Below, in pieces: positions 6,001 to 31,944 of a stretch of DNA of 32,423 nucleotides. The stretch spans positions 1 to 32,423 of IMG/VR virus record IMGVR_UViG_3300044993_000281, one strand, 5' to 3'. The notes beneath the pieces are model-generated. The model saw only the letters and a list, made by a program, of their open reading frames with translations, did no database searches and was not told the origin of the DNA. Every line of letters begins with the position of its first letter. Position 1 is the first letter of the stretch. The DNA is from a virus. The translations under genes and the position numbers were made by a program.

Positions 6001-9000
6001 AAGGACGCCGCAGGTCTCCAAGTTCACCGACTTCATCAAGGGAGTGATCGATTGGTATGACAACTTGGACGGCAAGCAAAAAAAAGAGTTCAGCCATCTT
6101 CCCCTTGTGACTTACAACGCCGCAAAGATGGCGGCCATTGACATCCGGCTGGTCGATCCCCAAGCCAAGGATGAGCCAGGCAGCAAGGTGAACATTGCTT
6201 TGAAAAAGGTTGTGGAACTTTACCGCCGCACCAATGATTACCTTGGCACGCAGGTTATTTTTGCCGACAGCTTCCGGCCGCTGAAAAGCACGGCGTTGGA
6301 TATAAGTGCGGCGGATTTGGAACCGGGCGAATCGCTGGATGATGATGAAAAAGCCGAGCGCGAAGCGGATGCGGCAGGAGGTTTCAATCTCTATCGGGAC
6401 ATGAAAGCCAAGCTGGTTGCTTCCGGCATCCCGGAAGCCGAGATTGCGATAATTTCCGACTACGACACCGACAAGAAAAAGGAGCGCCTTTTTGAACAAG
6501 TCAACGAAGGCCAAGTGCGCATCGTCATTGGCAGCACGCAACGGCTTGGCACCGGGGTGAACATGCAACGGCGCATGATTGCGGCACACCATCTGGACGT
6601 GCCTTGGACACCGGCGGAACTTGAACAGCGGGACGGGCGGGTTTACCGGCAAGGGAACATTCATTCCGAGCTTGGCGTGCCGGTCGAGATTTACCGTTAC
6701 GGGATGAAGGATACTCTTGACGCTGCCCTGTGGCAAAAGCTGGAAACCAAGGAACGGTTTATCAAGCAGGCATTGAGCGGGAAAATGAATTCCCGCAGCA
6801 TCGAGGATGATACCGGGCTGCTGAATTTGGCGGAACAGAAGGCTGTGCTTTCCGGCCCGCTGGGGATGCGGAAATTCGAGGCCGACCAGCGTGTGCGTGA
6901 ATTGCAAGCCGAGGAACGGGCTTGGCGCATGAGTGTGGCGGAAGCGGGCCAGAATGCGAGCAAAGCATCCAAGTGGCGGAGAATAGCCGAAGGTGGCTTG
7001 GCCAAAGCCCGGCGAACTCTGGAATCCGTAAAATCGTGGAGCGGGCCGGTTTCTTTGGAAATTGGCGGGAGGTCGGCCAAAGGTGCGGAACAAGCCACGG
7101 AATTGCTGAAAAGTGTCTTCGAGGAGCGATTGAGCCTGATCCGTTCCATTGCCAATCCAAGCACCAGCCCCCGCGCAAATTCTCCGATGGGCAAAGCATT
7201 TTTCAACGGAACCGAGATTGAATTGGGCCGCCCCTCCATCAACGAACGGCTTGGTGAAAGCAAACCGGAAAACCGCTGGCGTATAGAAGTGCCAATTCTT
7301 TTCAACGGGGAGCCCATTGGTTCGGCGCAGTCGGCTGGATGGGTTTTGCGGCGTTTGCAGGAATTTCCTGCTTCCGTTGAGGAAACCATTGTGCGCTTGC
7401 AGCGGGAAATTGATCGCTACCAGAAACAGGAAGACGCGGCTCTGAAACAAATGGAAGGGGCTTTTCCGAAACAAGCCGAGCTGGAAGCAGCCCTTCTTGA
7501 ACAGTCCGAAGTCATGCGGTTGGTGAGTGAGAAGCCCGGCGAACAAGAAAACACACTAAATGATACGAATAGTGAAACCATACCTTCCTTAGCTTCCGGC
7601 GAACGTGCTCGTGGGCAGATTGGCATAAAATCAATTGACCGGGATTCTTTGGCAGCGTATTTACAAGAAGGAGGTGCTTCCGCGCAGGAGGCAAAACAAG
7701 AAAGTGAGCGAATTTCCCGAACCTTGGAACAGTCTTCCGGAGGCCGAGTGGCCGAAGCGGGAGGCTACATACAGAGCGATCTCTTTATTGATTCGCCGAG
7801 CCAACCGGGAGGGCCGGACCAAGGCCGCTCAAAGGCTGGCAAAAAGGCTGCCCTTGCAATCAACCCCGCCGCAGAAAGTGCCTCGGCTGACCTCATAGCC
7901 GGGCTGCAAGGTGACTGGGAGGCACTGGCGCGTGAAGTGGCCGCCAAGGGCCGCGCATCCAGCATTTTTCAATCACTGGTTTCAAGAGAAATCCCCACTT
8001 GGGACGTTCGCGGGAGCCGCATCAGCTCCCCTCAAGACGTTCTAAATCTTATCGCTCCAATTCGTTCCCCGTTCTTTGAATCGCTCAAAGTGGCAATTCT
8101 GGATGGCAAAGACCGCGTTGTAGCCAGCAAAATTCTCTTTGTCGGAAGCCTCAACGAAAGTGTAGCGGACCCGAAAGCCTTGTTCGGCGAGCTGGCACTA
8201 CTTCGCGAGCAAACCGGCAAAAACTATTCGAGAATCATCTTTTCTCACAACCATCCGAGTGGAGACCCAACCCCATCTACAGCCGATAATAATCTGACTC
8301 GAAGAATTGTCGAAATTGCAAATCTCGCGAAATGGACCGTTGTTGATCACGTCATCACCAATGGAGAACAGTTTTTTTCTTTTCGCGAAGCGGGAATTAT
8401 TTATCAGCCCAACGTTGCAACAGATAGGACGGAATCTCCGACACCTCCACCAACGCCGCCATCCCAGCAGCCCTCTCAACAGAAATGGGAGGTTGTTCCC
8501 CGCAGTAAACTTCAAAGGATGGACGCATTTGAATACGCCAGGGATTTGGCCAAGCACCTCCGCAACGCAAATCCAGATGCCGCGCATATAATTTACCTGA
8601 GCACAAAATTAACTCTCATTGGCGTTGAAAGGATTGATGTAAACACGCTTGACTCGGAACATGAGCTAACCAAAACCCTCATTGCCGGAGCTGCCAGGGA
8701 AGGCGCGTATGCGTTTATTGTTGATGCGCCGTCCACCAATTCTTTTTCAGACAAAGGGCCATCTTTCCGTGATTTCGATCGAGCAAAAAGAATCAAAGAC
8801 ATTGCCAATGCAATAAATCTACAATTTTTAGACTTGTTGCATATATGGCCGGATGGAAATAGCACGAGTTATAAAGAAAAAGGCTTCGTCTTGGAGAGTC
8901 CTTCATTCATGTGGTCGGCGAGCAAAAAGCCCGGCGAACAAGAAAACACACTAAATGATACGAATAGTGAAACCATACCTTCCTTAGCTTCTGGCGAACG

Positions 9001-12000
9001 TGCTCGTGGGCAACTCATGTTTGACTTTGGACTTTATCGCAATCCGGGCGAGTTTGATTTCACCGACCGGGGCAAGGCACCCGGTGATTTGGTGAAAGAA
9101 AACATGGGTTTGGCGACCGCCATTGCCAATGATTTTTCGAACATTTCAGGCGTGGAGAAGGATGATGTGATCCAACAGGCGCGGGTTGCGTTGGTCAAGG
9201 CTGCAAAAGCCTACGATCCGTCCAGGGGTGTTCGGTTTGGGGTTTATGCGGGCCGGGCCATAAGGAATGAATTGTCTTCTCTTTACGGAAAACAGAGTCG
9301 GAGAACATCGCTTGAAGGCGATTCTCTGGATCGTCCGTTGGAAAATGCACCCGGTGAAACTGTCATGGATACCATTGCCGGGGAAAATGCCTGGAACGTG
9401 ATTGCCCCGGTGGAGCGCAATGAAACCAGAGACATCCTGAAAGGTTTATTGGCAAAGCTTCCAGAGCGGCCTCGCGCCATTGTCGAAGGATTCATGGCCG
9501 GGGAGAGCGGCGAGGAAATTGCGGCCCGGATGGGAATAACCCGGCAGGCGGTCAACGCGAGCTTGCAGGGAGCGTTGGCCGTTATGCGCCAGCGTTTGCG
9601 GGAACGGGGATTCAAGGGACAGGAAGATGGAGTGCTTTTTTCCGGTGAGCGTGACGATGAAAATTCGCCTGAAGACCTTTTTGCGGAACTGAACCGTGAA
9701 CTTCCCAGCCAGGAGGAAATTGACGAGCTTCGGCAAAAAGCGGCTGCGGAACCAATCGGCCAGCGCACCATCGGGCAGCCCCGAAAGGCAAACTATGCCG
9801 AAGACGACGCGACGCGGGTGGAAATCAACGTGGTTCAGCAAATGCGGGAAGAGGCCCGCAAGCGTGAGGAAGAAAGCGCGTGGATTGCGGAGGCTCGGAA
9901 GCGAATCGAAACCAACCGGGATTTGGCCAAGAAGGAAATTTTGCAGAAGGCCATGAACCCGGCCAAGTTTGGCACGTTTACGGCGGTGGACGTGAAAACA
10001 GCTCAGTTGCTTGTGCCGGAACTCATGCGGGAAGCCTACCGATCCGGTGACAAAACCAAGCAACGCGAGGCGTTTGCTTTGGCGTGGGCCTACGATGCTG
10101 GGGGGAGCGACCAAGCACGCGCCTTTGCTGCCCGGCGTGATCCGTTCAAGACCCCAGCCGAACGCCACATGGAATTTTTGACCAAGATGATTTCCACACC
10201 CACGGCGGAGCAACGGAAGTGGATTGCCCAAGCCGCCACGCAGGAAGAGAAAGCGCAGAGGCTGGAACAGGCCCAAAACGAACGGCTGGCGAAGATCGAG
10301 AAAGCGCTGGCCGACATGGGTGTGACTCTTGAAGACATCTTCGCCGGAGAAGCCTCCGTTGTGCTCAAGAGTGCCACGTTTGTGCAAAACGCCATCAAGT
10401 CTTTTGGGAAAGAGGAAGAGCGCAAGGTGATCCGCCTGACGCTGGATGGATTTTCCGACAAGGAAATTGCCAAGAAAACCCGGCTTTCGATCAAGGATAT
10501 TCAGGCCGTGCAAGACCGCATGGACGAAATTCTGGCCAAACGATTGGGAGAGTATGCCGAGCGTGGGTTTACCGCCGCTGATCTGGAAACCCTTGACATT
10601 TCCGAACTGTTTGCCGGTGAGAAGCCGGAGGTTCGCAAGGTGGCTCTTACTCCCGATCAAAAAGCAAAAATCGTGGCGGAAATGTTGCGGAAAATCCGAC
10701 CCGACCGGGAGGTGAGGAACAGCAAAAAGCTGGTGAAGCGCCGGAAGCCCCGCCGCAAACTTGAAAACCAAGCAGGGAGCGACGCGGAACGGGAAGCGTA
10801 TGAGAACGAACAGCCGTGGGAATATGTCGGGTTTGACCCTGGGAATCAGGATCAGGTGATTCGGGTGGCCCGGCTTGTGCAGGCTGCCGACGCCAACGCC
10901 ATCGACATGTTCTACGAAGCGTGGATTAACAGCATCCTTTCCGGCCCGCAGACCCAAGTGGTCAATATCATGGGCAATGCCGCGAATGCCCTGTGGGATT
11001 TCATGGTCCAGCGCCCGATGGAGGCCGCCATCAATGCCGCCTTGGTGAAGGATGCAGACGCGGCCAGTTTTGGAGAACTGCGTTACTTATTCCGTGGTGC
11101 CATTCCGGGCATAATCAAAGGATGGCAAGCCGGAATACGGGCATGGAACGCGGAACATGACTTTTTCGAGTCTGAAAAGCTCAACCAGCAAATCGAGTTT
11201 GAGGAATTTGACAAGGCGGGTGACATCAAGGTGACAATTCCCGGAAAGACTGGACGGTTCATCCGCATTTCGGGCCGTGCGCTGATGTTCATGGACAGCT
11301 TTTTCAAATATGCCACGGGGCAGATGGAAGCTGGAGCGCAAGCTTACCGCCTAGGCAAGGCCCAAGGCTTGGAGGGGCAGGCGTTGGAGGATTTTATCCG
11401 GTCGGAAATCAACCTACCCGGCAGCATGTCGTGGCAGCGGGCCGTGGCAAAGGCTAAGGATTTGACTTTCCAGACCGCCCTGCCCAAGGATGGCATTGGC
11501 GGTGTCGTTCGCAAGATCGGGGAAATACGCCGGGGAAAATCCACGTCCATCGGCGGGCGCTTGATGGAATTGTTCCTTGGCATGACGTTCCCCTTCATCC
11601 GCACGCCTTACAACATCTTCCGAATTGGCCTCCGCAAGAGTCCGCTGGGGGCGCTGAATGTTGCCTACCATATTCGCCAAGGCTTTTATTCGATGAAGAA
11701 AGGCCGACCTTTTGTTGAGGGATATTCCAAAGCCCAGCTTGTATCTGATTTGGCGGAACAGACGCTTGCATGGGTGGGAATGGCACTTTTGTGGGGAATG
11801 GTCGAAGGTGATGGTGAGGATGATGACGATGACAAGATGATTTTGATCACGGGTTCACGGCCCTACGGGGTTGACCGACAAGGGGAAAGGGATGCGCTTA
11901 ACCGCATGTATGGCGGCCCTTATCAAATCCGCATCGGCGGGAGGAATGGCATTTATTTCAACTACGGGCGGATCGAGCCATTTGCGACCGTGCTGGGCAC

Positions 12001-12721
12001 GGTGGCGGATATGGTCCGGCTGGCCAAGAGCCGGGATGCTTCGGATGCGGGCATCAAATTGTTTGGCTACTTCATGGCCCAAGCCAACGAGAAAACCTTT
12101 TTGCAGGGCTTTTCCACCATTACGGACACCATTGACGGAGCCATGCGTGATCCGAAGTCTGTGGCCAAGGCGTGGGAACGCCAGTTCCTTTCCGGCTTGG
12201 TTCCCAATATCATCCGTCAACCTCTGCGAAATTTGGATGATTTTGTCCGGGACAGCAAATACGCCGGGTTGGATTACACCCTGTTCGCCGCGCCAAACAT
12301 GGCCGAAAAGCGGGTGAATCTTTACGGCGAAGACATGCAGAAGCAGGGCAGTGGTCTTTCCCGCCTGTTCTTTGTTTCGGGTATCAAGCCGACGGAAACC
12401 CTGAAAACAGGTGACAGGTTTCTTGTGAATTGGAACGAAAAGAACCGGGATGCAGCCTACTGGCCGGAACGCCCGAACTCGTCTTTCTACCGCTTGAAAA
12501 ATCGCTTCGGAGAGCTTGTGGAAATGACTCCTGGGCAAATTGCCACCTTGGACAAAATGGCCGGGCATGCTTTTGAGCGCAAGTTGCGGAAATGGCTGAC
12601 CCCATCCCGCGCCATGAACCCGACCGAGGCTGATTTGAAAAGGTTCAAAGAAGACCTGAGCGACGCACGGCGCGAGGCCAAAGAAACCATCGCCCGCCGC
12701 GCCCTTCTTGTGTCTCCCTGA
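2..12721 (+). CDS. Giant phage polyvalent protein (ddrB/ParB-like, N6-methylase, SNF2 helicase, RadC-like, sigma-70-like, virion C-terminus); 5' partial
   Basis: The frame is open from base 2 and the first ATG (17) has no ribosome site, so the N-terminus probably lies upstream. Residues are numbered from that ATG. Residues 160-530 are ddrB/ParB-like (NPRYPQELQPRDR at 203, then ESGNGR). Residues 780-1130 are an N6-adenine methylase (LEPAGGVG at 972, NVPF at 1038). Residues 1650-2290 are an SNF2-like helicase (GVGGGKT at 1673, DEAH at 1841, QRDGRVYRQG at 2204). Residues 2640-2795 are RadC-like (SHNHPSGD at 2743), and a weaker JAB-like copy follows to about 2960. Residues 3000-3200 resemble sigma-70 regions 2 and 4. 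From 3600 to the end the sequence looks like the C-terminus of phage DarB-like or ejection proteins, with a hydrophobic stretch near 3917 followed by an acidic run. Methylase plus helicase architecture is known from P1 DarB-type anti-restriction proteins carried in the head. The position just before the portal gene fits a virion protein. Delivery with the DNA is inferred. Confidence 0.93.
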   Translation, partial: DDPFTMGHEFIRMLTQDKFFNQVTESTEIDDGLIAYLRELLEKIGRQLRSMLADPAITDAATRQAVREAEGLVARRLSDLGVKKEVSEGGQKQFSSNNDSTNYLSFERGTTSADNRGGLLGIERGTGMEEVSRQTLSGRGTAPVSVEAGEDVALAGEETSRKLPPARFSQLGDVGVAYTDNNDPVEYRWALAELDDLVISNEDSGAINPRYPQELQPRDRSTAGSQAQVNDIARNANFDRLSFSESVGNGAPIVGPNDGVAESGNGRLMGLRRAYNLELPSIKVYREKLAANAEKFGLDGSKVAAMKKPVLVRVRQTTLDRRKFVEVANVSNVAPMREMEIARKDAANLSLGLFELFNPDENGNILTAGNQDFIRAFVLNVIPQTERAAIVDSRGGLSQSGLRRIRNALFVYAYGDSPEAMNALGRMAEDIEADGRNITNALIAAAPVFARQNAAIKNGSLHDAGISGDLVAAAQALMEIRARGERVSDYLQQGQLIDDGVTPLQREILQFLDQNGRSAKRILETLRRYAVALDAAGDPRQEQLLQMDAPTKESLWNLAKKPNAEEPILQSGKRAVAAPNWMRIYNRLFNMERAGARLNESQRSLLERAERELGQILMFAGEGYGPAPRGEGVNVGIFDEGQDQGRLFAGQRSGEQLDLFDTLSESQRREVQSRELDLFGNPFTESKPTRISSKKRKAPDESGLRQSDELFGQFNFQRVEPMEQKLGLFEEENGPRLRSGLGQSGTGYTGSTGSSDGGRQSLRPGGREDLLPDETSAGDMGGDQAGGEPTGSGQRDRGVSEWVLTRPPAGSPDRNHVIREGDTLAPRGDIARIRANIDAIRLLRRLEEEGRNPTVEEKKILAQYVGWGGLPQVFDDEKAAAFANDEHRTRRSTADVYERYGPAYYKIVEDYRKQAQAIENWHEKWGKWHAELKELLTPEEYSAAAASTLNAHYTSPEVIRAMWDMAQRLGFRGGSVLEPAGGVGHFFGLMPEGIAESSQLSAVELDSLTGRILTKLYPEADVQVTGFQDAKIPDNSVDLAISNVPFANISIFDPEMEAAKAPKFSLHNYFFAKALQKVRPGGLIAFITTSNTMDANVRQRKWLAERSELIGAIRLPNTAFNENANTEVTTDILFLRKPDGTPPVFDREEWASTAEAKTRKGEPIQINEYFVRHPEMILGELDNDGKMYGRPDEKGQMTVHPFQGKPLAESLSEAAERLPANVIFTSAEAVPERNQRSQQIWRETRGNKVGTLSKLDDGSIVISGVFDQNEDILKPKNRKLAEDFIALRDTLNALYESELNPDATDSQIEGQRELLNRRYDAFVRDHGNLHKFVDLLGIDPDFYRLLGTEIEQKPENAAESIRVILSRKKRYRKGDVFTKRVLTPRREPEKAETVEDALGISLGWRGRIDVDFMARLLSREQAEVENELLVGGMAFRNPESGLLETREEYLSGNVRKKLRVAEIKAAEDPAYGPNVEALQRVQPEDVKIADIKMKLGSAWIPADVVQRFARQIFDSEAVDVIYHPGRGEMIEDSWEIRYGGKGTAATGNLTAAMSQIYGTNRMSGLALLEKALNLQQPEIYDTNNDGKTRIFNPTATTQAKVAMQKIKDAFDQWVQRNPDVQEELAKVYNEVNNSHVLRQYDGQFLQFPWMAAGFDLFSEKKNVVWRAIQDGRMLIAHGVGGGKTIIGTSIAMELKRLGQARKPLIVVHNATLEQFAGTINAMAPTARVLVARKKDLEGKKRKEFMAKVAAGDWDAVVMAHSSFDMIPDDPAYEAKLINELQEELRDAITEMGGNPDGDARKTKDPTVKEMQKQLARLGERMKELQDRKRDDVLNFQELGIDALILDEAHLYKKIPFVTKLRRIAGIDNGASKRGTALMTKVRFIQEKNKGRNVFTMTGTPVTNTLGESWNMIRLVAPDLLKEFNVENFDRFVSTFADIVNSAELRANGAYKQIDRLAALANLPEWNRFFRLGADVKMGEDMQVRGRPEIKGGKPELVAVERTPQVSKFTDFIKGVIDWYDNLDGKQKKEFSHLPLVTYNAAKMAAIDIRLVDPQAKDEPGSKVNIALKKVVELYRRTNDYLGTQVIFADSFRPLKSTALDISAADLEPGESLDDDEKAEREADAAGGFNLYRDMKAKLVASGIPEAEIAIISDYDTDKKKERLFEQVNEGQVRIVIGSTQRLGTGVNMQRRMIAAHHLDVPWTPAELEQRDGRVYRQGNIHSELGVPVEIYRYGMKDTLDAALWQKLETKERFIKQALSGKMNSRSIEDDTGLLNLAEQKAVLSGPLGMRKFEADQRVRELQAEERAWRMSVAEAGQNASKASKWRRIAEGGLAKARRTLESVKSWSGPVSLEIGGRSAKGAEQATELLKSVFEERLSLIRSIANPSTSPRANSPMGKAFFNGTEIELGRPSINERLGESKPENRWRIEVPILFNGEPIGSAQSAGWVLRRLQEFPASVEETIVRLQREIDRYQKQEDAALKQMEGAFPKQAELEAALLEQSEVMRLVSEKPGEQENTLNDTNSETIPSLASGERARGQIGIKSIDRDSLAAYLQEGGASAQEAKQESERISRTLEQSSGGRVAEAGGYIQSDLFIDSPSQPGGPDQGRSKAGKKAALAINPAAESASADLIAGLQGDWEALAREVAAKGRASSIFQSLVSREIPTWDVRGSRISSPQDVLNLIAPIRSPFFESLKVAILDGKDRVVASKILFVGSLNESVADPKALFGELALLREQTGKNYSRIIFSHNHPSGDPTPSTADNNLTRRIVEIANLAKWTVVDHVITNGEQFFSFREAGIIYQPNVATDRTESPTPPPTPPSQQPSQQKWEVVPRSKLQRMDAFEYARDLAKHLRNANPDAAHIIYLSTKLTLIGVERIDVNTLDSEHELTKTLIAGAAREGAYAFIVDAPSTNSFSDKGPSFRDFDRAKRIKDIANAINLQFLDLLHIWPDGNSTSYKEKGFVLESPSFMWSASKKPGEQENTLNDTNSETIPSLASGERARGQLMFDFGLYRNPGEFDFTDRGKAPGDLVKENMGLATAIANDFSNISGVEKDDVIQQARVALVKAAKAYDPSRGVRFGVYAGRAIRNELSSLYGKQSRRTSLEGDSLDRPLENAPGETVMDTIAGENAWNVIAPVERNETRDILKGLLAKLPERPRAIVEGFMAGESGEEIAARMGITRQAVNASLQGALAVMRQRLRERGFKGQEDGVLFSGERDDENSPEDLFAELNRELPSQEEIDELRQKAAAEPIGQRTIGQPRKANYAEDDATRVEINVVQQMREEARKREEESAWIAEARKRIETNRDLAKKEILQKAMNPAKFGTFTAVDVKTAQLLVPELMREAYRSGDKTKQREAFALAWAYDAGGSDQARAFAARRDPFKTPAERHMEFLTKMISTPTAEQRKWIAQAATQEEKAQRLEQAQNERLAKIEKALADMGVTLEDIFAGEASVVLKSATFVQNAIKSFGKEEERKVIRLTLDGFSDKEIAKKTRLSIKDIQAVQDRMDEILAKRLGEYAERGFTAADLETLDISELFAGEKPEVRKVALTPDQKAKIVAEMLRKIRPDREVRNSKKLVKRRKPRRKLENQAGSDAEREAYENEQPWEYVGFDPGNQDQVIRVARLVQAADANAIDMFYEAWINSILSGPQTQVVNIMGNAANALWDFMVQRPMEAAINAALVKDADAASFGELRYLFRGAIPGIIKGWQAGIRAWNAEHDFFESEKLNQQIEFEEFDKAGDIKVTIPGKTGRFIRISGRALMFMDSFFKYATGQMEAGAQAYRLGKAQGLEGQALEDFIRSEINLPGSMSWQRAVAKAKDLTFQTALPKDGIGGVVRKIGEIRRGKSTSIGGRLMELFLGMTFPFIRTPYNIFRIGLRKSPLGALNVAYHIRQGFYSMKKGRPFVEGYSKAQLVSDLAEQTLAWVGMALLWGMVEGDGEDDDDDKMILITGSRPYGVDRQGERDALNRMYGGPYQIRIGGRNGIYFNYGRIEPFATVLGTVADMVRLAKSRDASDAGIKLFGYFMAQANEKTFLQGFSTITDTIDGAMRDPKSVAKAWERQFLSGLVPNIIRQPLRNLDDFVRDSKYAGLDYTLFAAPNMAEKRVNLYGEDMQKQGSGLSRLFFVSGIKPTETLKTGDRFLVNWNEKNRDAAYWPERPNSSFYRLKNRFGELVEMTPGQIATLDKMAGHAFERKLRKWLTPSRAMNPTEADLKRFKEDLSDARREAKETIARRALLVSP
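294..515 (+). CDS. Candidate overprinted small gene, 73 aa
   Basis: This ORF lies in the +1 frame relative to the giant gene, over a linker whose main-frame translation is Gly/Ser/Glu-rich and low in complexity. The overprinted product has balanced composition and looks like a real helical protein (for example TIEEVYLELNGELEWRKFL), with codons similar to neighbouring genes. It stops just where the main frame becomes ordered again, before the ddrB/ParB-like domain. A GGAGG lies at 266-270, but 23 bases upstream of the ATG, which is far for a ribosome site. I recognise no family. It could be a functional nested gene, a relic of a small gene absorbed when two larger genes fused, or chance. Confidence 0.4.
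   Translation: MIQPIIYRLNGAPPPQTIEEVYLELNGELEWRKFLDKHFPVEELPLFRWKRERMLRLQAKRLLANCPQRVSLN
2100..2414 (+). CDS. Candidate overprinted gene, 104 aa, in the linker before the methylase domain
   Basis: The ATG at 2100 follows an AAAGG stretch about nine bases upstream, and the ORF runs 104 codons in the +1 frame of the giant gene. Its translation is well mixed and predicted helical: MNLDYDKVMSFLANSTSKEL at the start, DWGNLEPDTQEALEAATADG in the middle, IAAFLNGY at the end. Over the same bases the main frame is a repetitive Gly/Ser/Thr/Asp linker. This is the pattern expected when the +1 frame is the older or more constrained coding frame. No family is recognised. It may be an expressed nested gene or the remnant of a small gene between the ParB-like and methylase genes before they fused. 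Confidence 0.5.
   Translation: MNLDYDKVMSFLANSTSKELSQWSKNLDFLKKKMVHAYVRDWGNLEPDTQEALEAATADGSLYDRAEEKIYYLMKHQPETWEAIKLAVNQLDPDSGIAAFLNGY
7532..7617 (+). repeat. 86-bp direct repeat, copy 1
   Basis: This copy matches 8927-9012 with one mismatch in 86 bases (C at 7597, T at 8992). The offset is 1,395 bases, exactly 465 codons, so both copies are read in the same frame and give the same peptide from KPGEQENTLNDTNSET to SGERARGQ. The core is AT-rich, with ATA, TTA and CTA codons that look uncommon in the flanking sequence. Within the repeat the 9-mer CCGGCGAAC occurs at 7536 and again at 7596. The copy lies at the junction between the helicase part and the RadC-like cassette. Confidence 0.97.
7618..8926 (+). 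other. RadC-like (JAB/MPN) cassette within the giant gene, between direct repeats
   Basis: The segment between the two 86-bp repeats encodes a RadC-like fold: LFVGSLNESVADPKALF, then SHNHPSGDPTPS (residue 2743 onward), then VVDHVITNGEQFFSF. The His-x-His-Pro-Ser-Gly and downstream Asp fit the JAMM metal site of RadC/JAB proteins. After a proline-rich spacer (about 8430-8470) comes a second domain of about 130 residues ending in LLHIWPDGNSTSYKEKGFVL, which looks like a divergent copy of the same fold with its metal site altered. The stretch is visibly more AT-rich than its flanks. In-frame repeats at both ends suggest that the block was gained, or can be lost, as a unit by recombination. Confidence 0.75.
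7704..7898 (+). CDS. Candidate overprinted small gene, 64 aa, in the linker before the RadC-like domain
   Basis: A GTG at 7704 follows AGGAGG at 7686-7691. The 64-codon ORF is again in the +1 frame of the giant gene and covers a main-frame linker rich in Gly, Ser, Pro and Ala. Its product is basic and helical-looking, starting MSEFPEPWNSLPEAEWPKRE and continuing with ISLLIRRANREGRTKAAQRL. It is the third such ORF in the same relative frame, and all three sit at domain junctions. No family is recognised. The evidence is weaker than for 2100-2414, because the start codon is GTG and the spacing to the ribosome site is 12 bases. Confidence 0.33.
   Translation: MSEFPEPWNSLPEAEWPKREATYRAISLLIRRANREGRTKAAQRLAKRLPLQSTPPQKVPRLTS
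8927..9012 (+). repeat. 86-bp direct repeat, copy 2
   Basis: This copy is identical to 7532-7617 except at 8992. It lies directly before the sigma-70-like domain, which starts at about 9014. Recombination between the copies would remove exactly 465 codons and keep the giant frame open, joining the helicase part to the sigma-like part. Confidence 0.97.
9014..9640 (+). other. Sigma-70-like domain (regions 2 and 4) within the giant protein
   Basis: Residues 3023-3087 read like sigma region 2: DLVKENMGLATAIANDF, then DDVIQQARVALVKAAKAYDP, then RGVRFGVYAGRAIRNEL, matching the usual alternation of DLxQEGxxGLxxAxxxFDP and FxxYAxxxIRxxI motifs. Residues 3140-3196 read like region 4: LLAKLPERPRAIVEGFMAGE, then EEIAARMGITRQAVNASLQG, a helix-turn-helix. 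The two are joined by about 50 residues, the spacing of compact group 3/4 sigma factors. Finding a sigma-like module fused into a DNA-modifying, probably virion-carried protein is unusual. Whether it binds core RNA polymerase is inference. Confidence 0.75.
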
Positions 12722-24874: not shown

Positions 24875-26518
24875 ATGAACACACGAGTTCCATTAAACAC
24901 CAATACGCCTGAGATTCCCGCCATGCCTGGAACCGATACGGACGGCGGAGTTCCCGTTTTACATTCTGAAACGCACAAGCATGGAGGAACAGATGAGGTT
25001 GCCACAGCCACGCCTGGTGCCAACCAAATCGTCAAGGCCAATGGCGACGGGAAGATTGCCGATGGCTGGCTTTCCAATGCCATTGCCCGTCTGGTTGATT
25101 TGACTTGGGGGAATCTCATCGGGAAGCCCGCTACGTTCCCGCCATCGAGCCATAGCCACCCGCAATCCGAAGTTAATGGACTTTCTTCTGCTCTTGCCGC
25201 GAAGGTGGATACCAACGATTCCCGGCTTTCGGATGCCCGCACTCCTACGGGTGGGGCCGGAGGGGTCTTGAGCGGCAGTTACCCGAACCCTGGCTTTGCC
25301 GTGGACATGGCAACGCAGGCTGAACTGGATGAGCATACCGGCAACACCAACAACCCCCACGGCGTTACCAAGGCGCAGGTGGGCTTGGGGAATGTGGACA
25401 ACACCAGCGATGCCAACAAGCCCATTTCTACGGCCCAGCAAACCGCACTGGATGCCAAAGTAACCGGACCGGCCAGCGCCACGGACGGGCGGATCGCTCT
25501 TTTTGATGGCTCGACCGGAAAGCTCATCAAGGTGGCAAACCAGGCCATTTCCGACCTGTTGAATCGGGCCAACCACACCGGGACGCAGCTTGCGGCCACG
25601 ATCAGTGATTTTGGTTCTGCCGCCCTTTCCCATGTAACGTGGAGCACGCTGACGGGGAAACCTTCCACTTTTCCTCCGACTGCGCATACTCATACTGCCT
25701 CAGATATTGCCGATTCTACACCCGCAGGGCGTGCGATGCTCACGGCGGCAGATGCACAAGAGCAAGCAAATTTGATTGGTGTTCCCATCATCCCCACAAT
25801 CGTCATCGACGACAACGTGATTGAGTTCTTCGGCTATCCTACAACGATTGCGGATAATCAGTTTGAAAGCACCGGAGTCACACAGGTTCAGATTGGCAAC
25901 TCCGTGACTACGATTGGGAGCGATGCGTTCGCCTACAACTCCCTGACGAGCGTAGTGATTCCCAACTCCGTGACTACGATTGGGAGCGGTGCGTTCTACA
26001 ACAACTCTCTGACGAGCGTAACAATCCCCAACTCCGTGACTACGATTGGGAACTATGCGTTCCATGCCAACTCTCTGACGAGTGTAGTGATCCCCAACTC
26101 CGTGACTACGATTGCGAATGGTGCGTTCTTCTTCAACTCCATAGCGAGCGTAGTGATTCCGAACTCCGTGACTACGATTGGGGACGATGCGTTCTCCTAC
26201 AACTCTCTGACGAGCGTAACAATCCCCAACTCCGTGACTACGATTGGGGACGGTGCGTTCTACAACAACTCTCTGACGAGCGTAACAATCCCCAACTCTG
26301 TGACTTCGATTGGGGGCGGTGCGTTCGCCAACAACTCCACCTTAGCCACGGTCAACTGCTATGTCACCAAAACCATAATCGACGCGGCTACGAATATCTT
26401 CCAAAACACGGCCAGCCCTCTCACCATCCACGCCAGAGCCATTGACGGAACGTGGACGGCAGGAACAGGGCTGAGTATTGGCGGGAACACCAACGTCACG
26501 GTGATTAAAGACCTATGA
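24875..26518 (+). CDS. Tail fibre with BspA-type leucine-rich repeats, 547 aa
   Basis: Residues 25-110 carry His-rich phage-fibre motifs (HSETHKHGGTDEVATATPG, SHSHPQSEVNGLSSALAAKV). Residues 115-200 carry the classic fibre repeat (NNPHGVTKAQVGLGNVDNTS, ANKPISTAQQTALDAKV). Another His-rich block is at 260-285. Residues about 340-495 are seven tandem 22-residue LRR_5/BspA-like units, for example IPNSVTTIGSGAFYNNSLTS. The final part is beta-like and probably caps the structure. Such fibres reach the host surface, and the LRR domain is a likely receptor-binding part because BspA-type repeats mediate adhesion elsewhere. The stop overlaps the next gene's ATG (ATGA). Confidence 0.85.
   Translation: MNTRVPLNTNTPEIPAMPGTDTDGGVPVLHSETHKHGGTDEVATATPGANQIVKANGDGKIADGWLSNAIARLVDLTWGNLIGKPATFPPSSHSHPQSEVNGLSSALAAKVDTNDSRLSDARTPTGGAGGVLSGSYPNPGFAVDMATQAELDEHTGNTNNPHGVTKAQVGLGNVDNTSDANKPISTAQQTALDAKVTGPASATDGRIALFDGSTGKLIKVANQAISDLLNRANHTGTQLAATISDFGSAALSHVTWSTLTGKPSTFPPTAHTHTASDIADSTPAGRAMLTAADAQEQANLIGVPIIPTIVIDDNVIEFFGYPTTIADNQFESTGVTQVQIGNSVTTIGSDAFAYNSLTSVVIPNSVTTIGSGAFYNNSLTSVTIPNSVTTIGNYAFHANSLTSVVIPNSVTTIANGAFFFNSIASVVIPNSVTTIGDDAFSYNSLTSVTIPNSVTTIGDGAFYNNSLTSVTIPNSVTSIGGGAFANNSTLATVNCYVTKTIIDAATNIFQNTASPLTIHARAIDGTWTAGTGLSIGGNTNVTVIKDL
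25901..26362 (+). repeat. Seven tandem 66-bp repeats encoding BspA-type LRR units
   Basis: The sequence TCCGTGACTACG or a close variant recurs at 25901, 25967, 26033, 26099, 26165, 26231 and 26297, exactly every 66 bases. Each unit encodes 22 residues around NSVTTIG and AF. Units differ mainly in the two or three codons after TTIG and before NS. High nucleotide identity makes copy-number change by recombination likely. Confidence 0.95.
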
Positions 26519-27315
26519 GCAAACGCTTGATATTTGTATCTGGTTTGCCAAGAGCAGGCTCAACTTTGCTGATGAACCTTCTTGCTCAGAATCCACTTGT
26601 TCACAGCACGGCAACCAGCGGCCTACATGAGATCGGCTACATTGCTCGTCAGTTCCACCAGACCGAAGAGTTTAAGACAATCCCGAATCCACAGGACGGA
26701 GAAACCCTGTTCTACGACTACGTCAAGGGCGGATGCGAAAACGCCTTCAATCGCCTTACGGATCGCCCTATCGTGGCCGACAAATGCCGTTCGTGGGTGG
26801 GACATCTGGACATGCTGTTTGCCATCTGGCCAGACGCCAAAGTTCTAGTTCCTGTCCGAGATATGAGAGGCATCCTTTCCAGTCTGGAGAAGAAATGGCG
26901 CAAGCATCCATTTCCAATGACCGGAGTGGAAAAGGCAAATCCGCAGAACTGGACAACAGTTGAAAAACGCGCCCAAGGGTGGCTGAATCAGCCCCCTCTT
27001 GGCATTGCCGTCGAACGCCTCTCCGATGCGGCCAAACGCTTCAAAGATCGCCTGCATTTTGTCCACTTTGAAAAGCTCACTGGAAGCCCCGCTACCACGA
27101 TGCAAGACATTTGGCTGTATCTTGGCCTTGATCGTCCCGAACACGACTTCAACAATGTGGAGCAATACACCAAAGAGCACGAATTGGGGTGGCCTTATGG
27201 CGACCATGAAATCCGTTCCAAGGTGGCTCCGGTCAAACCCGATTGGGATGAAGTCCTTGGCCCACAGCTTTCCGCAGGCATCGAACAATCATTCAGGTGG
27301 ATTAACCAATTATGA
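26515..27315 (+). CDS. Sulfotransferase-like protein, 266 aa
   Basis: The N-terminus has the PAPS 5'-phosphosulfate loop GLPRAGSTLL (residues 10-19), and the 3'-phosphate-binding motif appears as VRDMRGILSS (Arg115, Ser122). The length fits the sulfotransferase family that moves a sulfuryl group from PAPS to a hydroxyl or amine. The acceptor is unknown. The gene overlaps the fibre gene by four bases and the next gene by four, so it is part of the fibre operon rather than a stray insertion. It could modify host surface glycan or a virion protein; both are inference. It is probably cytoplasmic, with no signal peptide. Confidence 0.85.
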   Translation: MSKRLIFVSGLPRAGSTLLMNLLAQNPLVHSTATSGLHEIGYIARQFHQTEEFKTIPNPQDGETLFYDYVKGGCENAFNRLTDRPIVADKCRSWVGHLDMLFAIWPDAKVLVPVRDMRGILSSLEKKWRKHPFPMTGVEKANPQNWTTVEKRAQGWLNQPPLGIAVERLSDAAKRFKDRLHFVHFEKLTGSPATTMQDIWLYLGLDRPEHDFNNVEQYTKEHELGWPYGDHEIRSKVAPVKPDWDEVLGPQLSAGIEQSFRWINQL

Positions 27316-28511: not shown

Positions 28512-28927
28512 GAACGCTGAGAACGCTGAACGCACTTGAGGAGCCTCGTATTTACTGGGATCGACAAGCTCGGACATGGCGCACGGATTCCGATGTTGTT
28601 TGGTTTGCGCGGGAGGCAGGTGTCAATATTGTTGTTGAAGCGGGTTTTTCCACCGACCTTGCCAGCGTTCCGTTTTTCTTGGTTCCGTTTGTGTCGATGT
28701 ATGGCAACTGGAACCGCGCTGCCATCGTCCATGACTATTTGTATTTGCGGCGGGGTGTTCTTCCCTGCGGAAAAATTTTGACTCGCAAACAGTGCGACCG
28801 GATTTTCTTGGACATTGCAATCGTGGATGGGACGAATCCGTTTATTGCAACGGTGGGGTATTATGGGATTCGAGTTAATCCGGCCAACTGGCCGATTTTT
28901 AAGCGTTGGGAAGGGCGGGCAAAATGA
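28508..28927 (+). CDS. DUF1353 family phage protein, 139 aa
   Basis: The family signature GFSTDLASVP (residues 46-55) and AAIVHDYLY (71-79) are both present, with the Asp and His-Asp residues conserved. DUF1353 proteins are frequent beside phage lysis or tail genes; their function is not established, and the His-Asp pair suggests a metal or catalytic site. GGAGGG precedes the start. The gene overlaps its neighbours by four bases at each end, in line with a lysis operon. Confidence 0.85.
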   Translation: MRTLRTLNALEEPRIYWDRQARTWRTDSDVVWFAREAGVNIVVEAGFSTDLASVPFFLVPFVSMYGNWNRAAIVHDYLYLRRGVLPCGKILTRKQCDRIFLDIAIVDGTNPFIATVGYYGIRVNPANWPIFKRWEGRAK

Positions 28928-29481
28928 CGGCGAAACAAATCCGAGAAATGCAAGAGCGCATTGGGACGACGCCCGATGGATTTTGGGGGCCGAAATCCAT
29001 TGCGGCTTGTCAGGCGTATTTGCGGAATTTGATGCCCAAACCCAATCCGTGGCCGGGGCAATCGCAATCTGCATTGCAGGCGTTCTATGGCTCGCCGGGG
29101 CAGAACCTAACCACAATTCGCGTTAGCGGTCTTGGGATCGAATACGATGGCACACCTGTTGGAAGTATAACTGTTCACCAAAAATGCAGCGAGTCTCTTT
29201 TGCGCATCCTCGAAGAAATTGCCGCCTCAAAGCACCGAGGATTGCTCAAACAGTATGCCGGGGTCTATAACCACCGGACGATGCGGGGAGGATCGCTGCC
29301 CAGTCTCCATGCCCGTGCAGCAGCGATTGATCTGGCGCCTGCTACCAATGGCAATCAAACTCACTGGCCAGCACGAGCCACCATGCCGCTGGATGTCATG
29401 GAAATTTTTGCTCGCGAGGGATGGCTTTCAGCGGGGGCTTTTTGGGGGCGCGATGCGATGCATTTCCAAGCGACGTCTTAA
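28924..29481 (+). CDS. Endolysin: peptidoglycan-binding domain plus M15-type peptidase, 185 aa
   Basis: Residues 4-35 resemble a peptidoglycan-binding domain (IREMQERIGTTPDGFWGPKS). Residues 80-185 are an M15-like zinc peptidase: SLHARAAAIDL gives His129 and Asp136 with the expected seven-residue spacing, and WGRDAMHFQ gives His180. These enzymes cut peptide cross-links in the wall, mostly acting as D-Ala-D-Ala or L-Ala-D-Glu peptidases. There is no signal peptide, so export would depend on a holin, consistent with the holin-like gene upstream. The ATG at 28924 overlaps the previous stop. Confidence 0.88.
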   Translation: MTAKQIREMQERIGTTPDGFWGPKSIAACQAYLRNLMPKPNPWPGQSQSALQAFYGSPGQNLTTIRVSGLGIEYDGTPVGSITVHQKCSESLLRILEEIAASKHRGLLKQYAGVYNHRTMRGGSLPSLHARAAAIDLAPATNGNQTHWPARATMPLDVMEIFAREGWLSAGAFWGRDAMHFQATS

Positions 29482-29528
29482 ACGCATGAGCGGCGCATTT
29501 CCCTGCGTAAGCTGGGGTAAGTTCACAA

Positions 29529-29702
29529 ATGTCCAACCGCGATTATATTCCCTGCTGGTTGCGGCGGCTTTGGCTCTGGCCTGTCTCGACCATAAGTCTT
29601 GTCTCAGAATTGCGCCGGAGGGCGCAAGAGGCGCAGGAAATCGAAGAAAACAGCTCGCCGGATGCCGCGGTAGGCAGCGAAGCCGAACAGAACGGGGACT
29701 GA
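29529..29702 (+). CDS. Small protein after endolysin, 57 aa
   Basis: The ATG has GGGG about 12 bases upstream. The product starts MSNRDYIPCWLRRLWLWPVS, has a Trp/Leu-rich, possibly membrane-touching segment, then a charged helix (RRRAQEAQEIEENSSPDAAV) and an acidic end. Codon use fits neighbouring genes. A competing frame from ATG 29486 to 29785 (99 codons) has a hydrophobic N-terminus but then becomes Arg/Gly-rich and looks like a shadow. The two frames overlap in a nested manner reminiscent of Rz/Rz1, so the choice is not certain. The function is unknown; a lysis accessory or spanin part is possible. Confidence 0.5.
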   Translation: MSNRDYIPCWLRRLWLWPVSTISLVSELRRRAQEAQEIEENSSPDAAVGSEAEQNGD

Positions 29703-29721
29703 ATCTAGCGCAAACGACGGC

Positions 29722-29820
29722 TCACTCGCCAGATTTATTTCGTCCGGGATTGGATCGGTGGCCGGTAGCCTCGGCCTGTTCGTAGATTTTACGCTGGTTA
29801 ACTAGTGCGGCCAGCGGCAT
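29722..29820 (-). CDS. Candidate 32-aa divergent protein opposite the RHH-like regulator
   Basis: MPLAALVNQRKIYEQAEATG followed by HRSNPGRNKSGE, 32 residues, a short helical and basic peptide. The main support is its start region. The 23 bases ending in its ATG (29840 down to 29818 on the minus strand) match the 23 bases ending in the regulator's ATG (29882-29904) at 19 positions, including ACACGGGTAAAA and TGTCATG. Both genes would thus have matching -10/operator and leaderless starts. It ends convergently 20 bases from the preceding + gene. Without that symmetry so short an ORF would not be called. Confidence 0.42.
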   Translation of the reverse strand: MPLAALVNQRKIYEQAEATGHRSNPGRNKSGE

Positions 29821-29904
29821 GACATTGTTTTTACCCGTGTAAAAACAATGCCGAAAAATTTTGCTTTGACACCCGTGTTTTACACGGGTAAAACTCGTGT
29901 CATG
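29818..29904. promoter_or_regulatory. Divergent promoter/operator region with paired palindromes
   Basis: Two palindromes of the form TTTTAC-N4-GTAAAA lie at 29829-29844 (N4 CCGT; arms extend to 12 bp, 29823-29850) and 29878-29893 (N4 ACGG), about 49 bases centre to centre. The + promoter is TTGACA (29866-29871), 17 bases, TAAAAC (29889-29894), then the ATG at 29902, so its -10 is inside the second palindrome. The spacer also forms ACCCGTGT-TTT-ACACGGGT. On the minus strand TAAAAA lies in the first palindrome at the same distance from the ATG at 29820, though its -35 is weak. The likely binder is the RHH-like protein encoded next to it. Positions 29703-29901 otherwise hold only the 32-codon ORF. 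Confidence 0.65.
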
Positions 29905-30096
29905 GCAAGACCAAGAACCGGCAACACCGTCAAAGATATCACGCTCACCTTGAGCGAGAAGAACCTGAAAGCAGGAAAGAAAATCGCCTTCCAACGCGGC
30001 ATCAGCCTTTCCGAAATGGTTGATCGTTTGCTTGTGGCGGAACTTACCGCCGAACAAAGCATCGCCATGCAGCACGGGCGGCGCATTGAGAAATGA
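29902..30096 (+). CDS. Ribbon-helix-helix-like small regulator, 64 aa
   Basis: The product starts MARPRTGNTVKDITLTLSEK; the strand DITLTLSEKN is followed by two helices, NLKAGKKIAFQRG and SLSEMVDRLLVAELTAEQ, the layout of Arc/MetJ/CopG ribbon-helix-helix DNA-binding proteins. The alternating polar residues of the strand would contact DNA as a dimer. The ORF could extend to 29848, but that would run through the promoter, so ATG 29902 is chosen; no ribosome site precedes it and the transcript would be leaderless. Autoregulation through the paired palindromes is inferred. It heads the recombination operon. Confidence 0.72.
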   Translation: MARPRTGNTVKDITLTLSEKNLKAGKKIAFQRGISLSEMVDRLLVAELTAEQSIAMQHGRRIEK

Positions 30097-30344
30097 CAAC
30101 CCTCCGCTCCCGTATATTTTGGTGGCTGGCTGGGATCGTGAAAGAGCTTTCCTTCCGGCTCGAACTTTTAAGCCAATGGCTGCGTCTCCAATGCCTTTCG
30201 GCTATGGAAAACACAAATCCCGCCACACCCGAAGCAAAAAGGGAACGGGAATTGTTTGATCCAGACGAACTCAAAGCCCAAGTGGAGGCGCATCACCTTG
30301 AGGTATCCCGCCGCCTCAACCCCAAACCCGGAGAAAATCCATGA
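30093..30344 (+). CDS. Small hypothetical protein in the early operon, up to 83 aa
   Basis: The ATG at 30093 overlaps the regulator stop. The N-terminus is basic and hydrophobic (MTTLRSRIFWWLAGIVKELS), perhaps membrane-touching, and the C-terminal part is charged and helical (EAKRERELFDPDELKAQVEA). An in-frame ATG at 30204 would give a 46-residue protein comprising only the charged part, but no ribosome site marks it. No family is recognised. The gene overlaps the next by four bases. Confidence 0.6.
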   Translation: MTTLRSRIFWWLAGIVKELSFRLELLSQWLRLQCLSAMENTNPATPEAKRERELFDPDELKAQVEAHHLEVSRRLNPKPGENP

Positions 30345-30532
30345 CCACAAAAAAAATCCGCTACATGGAGGATGCTCTCTACCGAACCAGTGACTCACAC
30401 TTTTTTAAGCTGCCGGAAGAACTCCGCAGCGACTTGGACATCCCGGCGTTCATGCGCCTGGGTATTCCCATCAAAAACAAAAAAACCCCGGCGTTGGAGC
30501 GCCGGGGAAAAACACAGAAAGGTAAGACATGA
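30341..30532 (+). CDS. Small basic hypothetical protein, 63 aa
   Basis: GGAG precedes the ATG, which overlaps the upstream stop. The product starts MTTKKIRYMEDALYRTSDSH, continues FFKLPEELRSDLDIPAFMRL and ends in a lysine-rich tail. It has no known domain. The 3' part of the gene contains a perfect 8-bp hairpin (30486-30507) that codes for KTPALERRGK. The stop overlaps the ATG of the Sak4-like gene. Confidence 0.62.
   Translation: MTTKKIRYMEDALYRTSDSHFFKLPEELRSDLDIPAFMRLGIPIKNKKTPALERRGKTQKGKT
30473..30507 (-). terminator. Minus-strand terminator inside a coding sequence
   Basis: CCCCGGCG (30486-30493) and CGCCGGGG (30500-30507) form a perfect 8-bp GC stem with a 6-base loop. On the minus strand the stem is followed by seven Ts, a G and five more Ts (30485 to 30473), a textbook intrinsic terminator. 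On the + strand only A residues follow, so sense transcription should pass. It would stop antisense transcripts before they reach the regulator region. Confidence 0.6.
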
Positions 30533-31488
30533 ATGAAAATACCAGCGCGATCTCACTCGCGCAAGTCAAAAAAGGACGGGTGCTCCTTCCGCATTTCGTC
30601 CTGATCTACGGCGTCGATGGCGTGGGCAAAACCACGTTCGCGGCGGAGGCTCCCAATCCGGTCTTTATCGGCACGGAAATGGGATTTGGACAACTGGACG
30701 TGGCGCGGTTTCCCACCCCGAAAAACTTCCAGGAAGTGCTGGCGACGGTTCAACTTCTCCTCAACGAGAAGCATGATTACAAGACGCTGGCCATTGATTC
30801 CCTTGATTGGCTGGAAACGCTTGTTTTCAAGCACATCTGCGACAAGCAGGGCTGGAAGTCGCTCGAAGACCCCGGATACGGCAAGGGCTATGCCTTTTTG
30901 CTCCCGACGTGGATGGAACTTGTCACGCTCCTGAAACGGCTGCGTGAAAAAATGAATGTGGTCTTAATCGCCCATGCGTCGATCCGCACGTTTAATGATC
31001 CCGAAAACAATGTCGCCTACAACCGCTATCAGTTGAAGCTGTTCACCAGCGAAAAAGTGGACACGGCAAGCCTGTGGCGTGAGGCCGTGGACAACGTGCT
31101 GTTCGCGAACTTCGAGGTTTCCACCACGCAGGCCAAGGGCGAGCGGAAGGCCAAAGCTTTTGGCGATGGCAGCCGCGTTGTTTACACCGAACGGCGCCCG
31201 GCTTTTGACGCCAAAAACCGTTTCAGTCTTCCCTTCGAGCTTCCGCTTTCTTGGGAAGAGTATGCCAAGGCGTGCGCGGATGCCTGCCCCAACGAGTCGG
31301 ATGAGATCAAGCAACTGGCCGGTGCCCTGAAAGGGCATGAAACGGAAGCCCTCGCTTGGCTGCGGAACAAAGGCTGGCTCAATCCGGATGGCAAGCTCTC
31401 GGATTTGGAGCCGAAACACCGTCGCCGCATTCTCAACAACCCCGATGGATTCATCGAAGTCATCACAACCGCAACCAAGGAGGACTAA
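30529..31488 (+). CDS. Sak4-like RecA-fold ATPase, single-strand annealing protein, 319 aa
   Basis: Walker A is GVDGVGKTT (residues 28-36), followed by a short strand with FIGTEMGFGQLD; Walker B is TLAIDSLDW (86-94). Then come VVLIAHASIRTF and the KLFTSEKVDTASLWREAVDN region typical of the phage AAA_24/Sak4 group, followed by a C-terminal helical extension (EIKQLAGALKGHETEALAWL). Sak4 proteins are RecA/Rad51-related and support single-strand annealing together with a phage SSB, and the very next gene is SSB-like. An AAAGG ribosome site precedes the ATG. It is cytoplasmic. Confidence 0.83.
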   Translation: MNENTSAISLAQVKKGRVLLPHFVLIYGVDGVGKTTFAAEAPNPVFIGTEMGFGQLDVARFPTPKNFQEVLATVQLLLNEKHDYKTLAIDSLDWLETLVFKHICDKQGWKSLEDPGYGKGYAFLLPTWMELVTLLKRLREKMNVVLIAHASIRTFNDPENNVAYNRYQLKLFTSEKVDTASLWREAVDNVLFANFEVSTTQAKGERKAKAFGDGSRVVYTERRPAFDAKNRFSLPFELPLSWEEYAKACADACPNESDEIKQLAGALKGHETEALAWLRNKGWLNPDGKLSDLEPKHRRRILNNPDGFIEVITTATKED

Positions 31489-31491
31489 GCC

Positions 31492-31944
31492 ATGCCACAT
31501 TACACCTACGACGACCCGGAGGACCGCCAAATGACGGTCGTAAAACCTGGCGAATACGACTTTGTGATCGCAGAAGTATTCGCCTTTGAAACCAGCAAAA
31601 ACACTGGCGCGGAATACCTGCCGATCAAGCTCCATATCAAGCCTGAGGGCACGGTGTTCGATAACCTGGTCTTTACCGACAGAGCAAAGTTCCGCATTGA
31701 TCAACTCCTAAAATCCATTGGCAAAGCACCGGCTCCGGGCTCCGCCGTGGATTTCGACGATCCGAGTTGGCTGGTCGGATGCAAAGGCCGCTGCCGCCTC
31801 AAGGTAGAAGAATACAACGGCCAAAAAAGAAACAAGGTAGATGCGTATCTCTTCACCCCCGGCGCTGTCATGGGCCGGAAGGTGACAAGCGCAGCACCAG
31901 CCGCCGCCCAACTTGACAAGGATGACGATAACATGCCGTTTTGA
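31492..31944 (+). CDS. Single-stranded DNA-binding-like protein (DUF669-like), 150 aa
   Basis: An AAGGAGG precedes the ATG. The protein is mostly beta (ADVK-type start is absent; instead MPHYTYDDPEDRQMTVVKPG, then YLPIKLHIKPEGTVFDNLVF, then CKGRCRLKVEEYNGQKRNKV), consistent with an OB-like fold, and it ends in the acidic tip DKDDDNMPF, which matches the C-terminal tail of SSB proteins (Asp-rich, ending Pro-Phe) that recruits partners. It lies directly after the Sak4-like gene and before a nuclease, which supports a recombination role. Family assignment is by style and tail, not by a full domain match. Confidence 0.78.
   Translation: MPHYTYDDPEDRQMTVVKPGEYDFVIAEVFAFETSKNTGAEYLPIKLHIKPEGTVFDNLVFTDRAKFRIDQLLKSIGKAPAPGSAVDFDDPSWLVGCKGRCRLKVEEYNGQKRNKVDAYLFTPGAVMGRKVTSAAPAAAQLDKDDDNMPF

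Follow-up and report, generated by a model that had tools for sequence, protein, structure and literature searches.

The analysed stretch of viral DNA carries a compact region that is probably the early-gene control locus, of immunity type, of a tailed phage. In this locus, a ribbon-helix-helix (RHH) protein encoded on the plus strand would act as an autorepressor, and a mirrored operator, OL, would lie over a reduced opposing slot. The whole stretch, referred to as the window, comprises 32,423 bases and corresponds to an IMG/VR virus record, a linear fragment. A previous sequence-only reading had proposed a small divergent switch of the lysis/lysogeny kind at the same place, with a 32-aa peptide as the product opposing the RHH protein.

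Rightward genes upstream of the control region encode a 4,239-aa fusion protein (17-12721), portal, capsid and tail-region proteins, an endolysin (28906-29481) and a 57-aa ORF (29529-29702). The fusion protein contains domains for regions 2 and 4 of sigma-70 (Pfam, 9e-11 and 2e-7), as well as a ddrB-ParB domain and helicase parts; judged by these matches, the giant phage polyprotein includes a sigma-like factor. Located among the tail-region genes is a sulfotransferase (26515-27315; Sulfotransfer_3, 7.6e-19), whose neighbor is a BspA-type leucine-rich-repeat protein (24875-26518). The 57-aa ORF, immediately 3' of the endolysin, has a hydrophobic N-terminal half and no family match, and is possibly a small lysis protein. 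On the other side of the control region, the gene for the 64-aa RHH protein (Arc/CopG fold, presumed autorepressor; 29902..30096, plus strand) is the first gene of an early operon, which continues on the plus strand (30093..31944) with an 83-aa ORF, a 63-aa ORF, a Sak4-like gene (30529-31488) and an SSB-like gene, followed by an exonuclease gene that extends from 31957 into the end of the record. No integrase was found in the window, the record being a fragment, no HTH repressor lies divergent to the early operon at this locus, and no ant-like gene was recognized, the 83-aa and 63-aa ORFs being without assigned function.

The DNA ahead of the RHH gene contains an inverted repeat with two 27-nt arms (29818..29844 and 29878..29904), which are complementary at 23/27 positions and separated by 33 nt. 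The arms terminate in opposing ATGs: the left arm, on the OL side, starts with a minus-strand ATG, and the right arm, on the OR side, ends in the plus-strand ATG of the RHH gene. The sequence-only reading had counted 19 matches between two 23-base stretches, one closing with the plus ATG (ACACGGGTAAAACTCGTGTCATG) and one with the minus ATG (ACACGGGTAAAAACAATGTCATG), and we obtained the same number. The TTTTAC-N4-GTAAAA element that it had assigned to each copy occurs exactly twice in the window, at 29829-29844 in the left arm and at 29878-29893 in the right; these 16-mers (TTTTACCCGTGTAAAA and TTTTACACGGGTAAAA) are exact reverse complements of each other. Once overlapping registers of the repeat itself are set aside, no other inverted repeat pairing at 20/27 or more positions within 150 bp was found in the window, and each of 20 shuffled windows contained two such pairs or fewer.

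The recognition unit looks to be better described as an 8-bp near-palindromic box, ACNCGNGT. Of its eight occurrences in the window, four lie at the repeat (29833, 29871, 29882, and 29893). The boxes at 29871, 29882 and 29893 follow each other in steps of exactly 11 bp and span the promoter. An 11-bp box pair appeared in none of 200 Markov simulations, a figure that is descriptive and no blind test, since the box was picked after the repeat had been seen. OL (29823..29850) is a perfect 12-4-12 dyad, CATTGTTTTTAC-CCGT-GTAAAAACAATG, around the box ACCCGTGT (29833-29840), and OR (29871..29900) comprises the boxes ACCCGTGT (29871), ACACGGGT (29882) and ACTCGTGT (29893). Spacing by one helical turn is typical of RHH dimer arrays, the half-sites of Arc lying 11 bp apart, and the RHH protein would bind the ACNCGNGT boxes. 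Across the 81-bp gap between the two divergent starts, 24 repeated-word pairs were counted, compared with a shuffle mean of 2.8.

Inverted arms of 27 nt, on a strand predicted to fold (z about -5), could also belong to mobile or structural DNA, as the terminal repeats of a very small MITE, a pair of crossover sites for a recombinase, or a cruciform at a replication origin. We regard this as extremely improbable, given that the arms lack a flanking target-site duplication, are register-locked to a promoter and a start codon, have no second copy in the window, and enclose 33 nt, too few for site-specific inversion. We attribute the predicted hairpins to the operator dyads; they do not resemble terminators. 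A search of Rfam for an RNA element at the repeat returned nothing above the gathering score.

OR overlaps a candidate early promoter on the plus strand, TTGACA-N17-TAAAAC (29866..29894), in which TTGACA (29866-29871) is followed after 17 nt by TAAAAC (29889-29894) and after a further 7 nt by the ATG at 29902. By an approximate weight matrix for E. coli promoters, it ranks among the seven highest-scoring sigma70-like positions of the window when both strands are counted. With the predicted transcription start at or just before the RHH ATG and no Shine-Dalgarno motif, the RHH mRNA is probably leaderless. The RHH frame has a second in-frame ATG upstream, at 29848, the use of which would make the OR region coding; the ATG at 29902 is favored because it lies 7 nt past the -10 element. 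By contrast, the mirrored -10-like TAAAAA on the minus strand (29828..29833) has no recognizable -35, and the corresponding promoter ranks about 430th in the window. The claim that each palindrome covers a -10 element therefore holds for the plus strand and is formal for the minus strand. The lambda promoter PRM is likewise a weak partner promoter, and a weak minus promoter would thus be compatible with function.

The sequence-only reading had described the regulator as RHH-like, which is supported by Pfam, structure prediction and fold search, and the candidate sites do lie on its own promoter. The only curated family whose cut-off the protein passes is Pfam DUF6364 (PF19891), and by a small difference (27.5 vs 27.3 bits); the function of this family is not known, so the name adds little. 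Weak matches were obtained to PHROG 3180 (Arc-like) and to CcdA-type proteins. An AlphaFold model of the monomer, based on a 12-sequence alignment (mean pLDDT 82, above 90 in the core) has an extended segment followed by helices at residues 19-32 and 36-62, and thus contains the short beta strand and two helices within about 45 residues that characterize the RHH superfamily. The top ranks in a Foldseek search were CopG, Arc, ParG and antitoxin RHH domains, with probabilities of up to 0.98 and E-values above 0.1, as expected because the protein has only 64 residues. The best solved-structure matches by sequence and fold were 1b01, 2cpg and 1ea4 of the CopG family. Together, the model and the matches support a protein of the MetJ/Arc/CopG superfamily. 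Close relatives were found neither in viral contigs, phage records and the first 14 related records, nor in 388 Verrucomicrobiota genomes.

To place the phage, the major capsid protein was used as a query, yielding matches at 68 viral loci and at three loci in genomes. The latter include, at 57% identity, a contig of Luteolibacter pohnpeiensis and, at 61%, a Chthoniobacterales MAG, on account of which the host probably belongs to the Verrucomicrobiota. An integrase is present in 15 of the 24 lineage records searched, a set that includes the window and one whole genome (G016) with other integrases, suggesting that the lineage is largely temperate. The window, a fragment without an integrase and with 32 codons opposite the RHH gene, may derive from a phage that is not temperate.

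In six lineage records examined in detail at this locus, the counterpart position is occupied by divergent repressor pairs, a count that is a lower bound. Four are RHH-RHH pairs. In G004 (L026/L027) the minus RHH gene is followed by an integrase (phrog_1, 2e-22) and the plus RHH gene by Sak4; G006 (L030) has a pair of RHH genes; in G020 (L179) the pair lies upstream of a RecT-like gene; and in G022 (L178) it is flanked by an endolysin 51% identical to that of the window and a RecT-like gene, the RecT labels having been given by eye from sequence. The remaining two are RHH-HTH pairs, in which an RHH gene leading to Sak4 is faced by a Cro/CI-type repressor: HTH_3 in G016 (L180, the Luteolibacter pohnpeiensis contig), and HTH_26 in G030 (L196), where the endolysin is 68% identical to that of the window and an integrase adjoins the HTH gene. 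An integrase is therefore found next to the repressor pair in 2/6 relatives (G004 and G030). RHH genes in the relatives were called with a local profile, which replaced noisy regular-expression scans; the profile was seeded by eye with RHH candidates, so the high scores of the seeds are built in and the profile says little about other long relatives. Outside the seeds, the minus RHH protein of G022 was recognized from a weak match (E 5.3). Since the RHH proteins of the relatives are just 13-27% identical to that of the window, the correspondence of the loci is positional.

The divergent starts are 79-116 bp apart in the relatives and 81 bp apart in the window. The gaps of the relatives contain operator-like repeats of their own, different from those of the window. 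Repeated 6-mers exceeded shuffles in the gaps of G006 (p 0.03), G020, G022 and G030 (0/300 shuffles), and did not in those of G004 and G016; 11-bp steps are readable in the gaps of G004 (GTGGGT) and G020 (ATACCGC, TTGCG). None of the 14 switch-gene starts on both sides, window included, has a Shine-Dalgarno motif, compared with 10/21 ordinary genes of the window. With divergent pairs in six relatives, starts without Shine-Dalgarno motifs and gaps of similar length, sequence comparison gives good support to a divergent switch locus in this lineage. In the gap of G022 (L178 1395-1498), GTGTAAAAC stands ahead of one ATG and GTATAAAAGTCGAG ahead of the other, and its plus side carries TTGACG-N17-TATAAA, the closest to the promoter layout of the window. 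A second small protein (MKPHKPDLNEKLTIRMS...) is conserved in L178 (1792-2208), L179, L186 (1063-1479) and L188 (2092-2508); its gene lies close to that of the endolysin, on the opposing strand, and the protein is RHH-like by eye, with no Pfam match.

The sequence-only reading had suggested looking for the paired palindromes in related genomes, and no relative has them: no relative was found to carry the RHH protein of the window together with the palindromes, and the exact 16-bp site was found elsewhere in 10 viral contigs, in a single copy each and never as a pair.

The positional counterparts also bear on an antitoxin role for the RHH protein, in a toxin-antitoxin module with autoregulation through the palindromes. 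Many antitoxins are autoregulating RHH proteins, and the DUF6364 and CcdA-type matches would fit such a role. It is nevertheless very unlikely here, as no toxin family, the other component of a type II module, occurs among the neighbors of the RHH gene, which instead leads a phage early operon, and as the counterparts in the relatives oppose CI-type repressors and adjoin integrases.

The 32-aa frame on the minus strand, from the ATG at 29820 to 29722 (MPLAALVNQRKIYEQAEATGHRSNPGRNKSGE), is present as described previously, and occupies the slot where the relatives begin their opposing repressor. Its codon score of 0.21 bits/codon compares with 0.28 (sd 0.18) for real genes and exceeds those of all 43 spurious ORFs of like length, in a test limited by the shortness of the ORF and by null ORFs that lie inside genes. 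It is also the best-scoring and the sole stop-free frame of the six in the segment (composition-shuffle p 0.008). This coding-like codon use is at most suggestive of a real gene. No homologue was found in phages or plasmids; a degenerate DNA pattern for RKIYEQAE recovered one unrelated protein family only, of about 315 aa. The frame shows no RHH or HTH similarity and no recognizable domain. Its start and the opposite-strand 57-aa ORF lie only about 120 bp apart, leaving little space for a longer gene. A frameshifted repressor remnant was sought in the three minus frames of 29440-29830, and none was found.

These observations bear on the bistable switch envisaged by the sequence-only reading, in which the 64-aa RHH protein and the 32-aa peptide would both be made from leaderless divergent transcripts and oppose each other, the arrangement having been reduced from RHH versus RHH. 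The codon statistics are in its favor, as are a mirrored operator and -10-like element equally far from the ATG on both sides and the precedent of a weak opposing promoter in lambda. Against it, the frame has neither homologue nor domain, the minus promoter lacks a -35, and the relatives have a full-size RHH or HTH repressor in that slot. With a weak minus promoter and a frame without homologue, a switch of RHH protein versus 32-aa peptide is unproven in the window, and we consider it unlikely. What stands of the earlier proposal is a control locus of lysis/lysogeny type, as indicated by the divergent pairs of the six relatives; the minus transcript, with its poor promoter, and the peptide as opposing product are not established.

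A possible, though clearly less probable, alternative to the immunity-type locus is autoregulation in one direction. OR would repress the early promoter, and OL would be an inverted duplicate of OR with an auxiliary function, in cooperativity or a short loop; the minus ATG would have been carried along in the duplicated TGTCATG, with no minus-strand product. The low rank of the minus promoter (about 430th in the window, the plus promoter being 7th) and the lack of a homologue of the 32-aa frame are consistent with this alternative. So are the outer CATGACA of the left arm, which merely copies the seven bases around the plus ATG, and the ATG-ended mirror symmetry, seen in the gap of no relative. 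However, the minus ATG lies at a distance like that of the real divergent repressors of the relatives, and the 32-aa frame has coding-like codons.

We therefore favor an immunity-type locus in a tailed phage whose lineage is largely temperate and whose host probably belongs to the Verrucomicrobiota. The RHH protein would be made first from the early operon, on a leaderless mRNA, and would repress its own promoter: its dimers would occupy the three 11-bp-phased boxes of OR, at the -35/-10 spacer, the -10 element and the start point, and thereby exclude RNA polymerase. Through OL, this protein would also cover the start of a second, divergent and leaderless unit at a distance of 81 bp; OL may be what is left of a control region shared by both sides. 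The slot of the opposing repressor, a 32-codon frame behind a weak promoter, appears to be much reduced or a vestige, the opposing gene having possibly been lost, replaced elsewhere or cut down to 32 codons. In this arrangement the RHH protein would hold the position of Cro or Arc in the early operon.

Control of lysis and lysogeny in phages is known chiefly through HTH repressors, with Mnt/Arc of P22 as the textbook RHH pair. The divergent pairs of RHH genes, or of RHH and HTH genes, which in this lineage stand at the start of the early operon and in two cases adjoin the integrase, suggest a role for RHH proteins in the main decision, and an opposing repressor that can be exchanged like a cassette. 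The window may offer a small system for studying how such switches are constructed, lost or reduced, its operators being nearly perfect mirror images and its opposing slot almost empty. A limited literature search by title and abstract found no description of RHH pairs heading an early operon.

Plasmid copy control by CopG, in which a small RHH autorepressor acts on its own promoter, resembles the arrangement presumed for the present locus, and CopG is the top structure match; it differs in that the locus reported here belongs to a phage early operon, has a mirrored second operator on a divergent start, and has no copy-control or rep operon. In lambda immC, divergent repressors with operators between them are combined with a strong early promoter, a weak opposing promoter and a leaderless repressor start. 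The Cro/CI-type HTH repressors facing an RHH gene in G016 and G030 recall CI/Cro, whereas the protein in the Cro position is RHH rather than HTH, and the window has no HTH repressor. The closest known system is ImmI of P22, whose two small RHH repressors are directed against each other: Mnt represses arc together with ant, while Arc in turn represses mnt and has a moderating effect on ant (PMC11016777, PMC7549136). ImmI is a secondary region acting via the antirepressor Ant, whereas the present locus heads the early operon; in addition, two relatives of the window have an integrase beside the pair, and the window has one RHH gene, faced by a 32-aa frame without RHH match. The likeness lies in the anatomy: the four RHH-RHH relatives share the layout of two small RHH genes, the protein of the window has a predicted Arc/CopG fold, and its two starts share an operator region in the repeat-filled gap.
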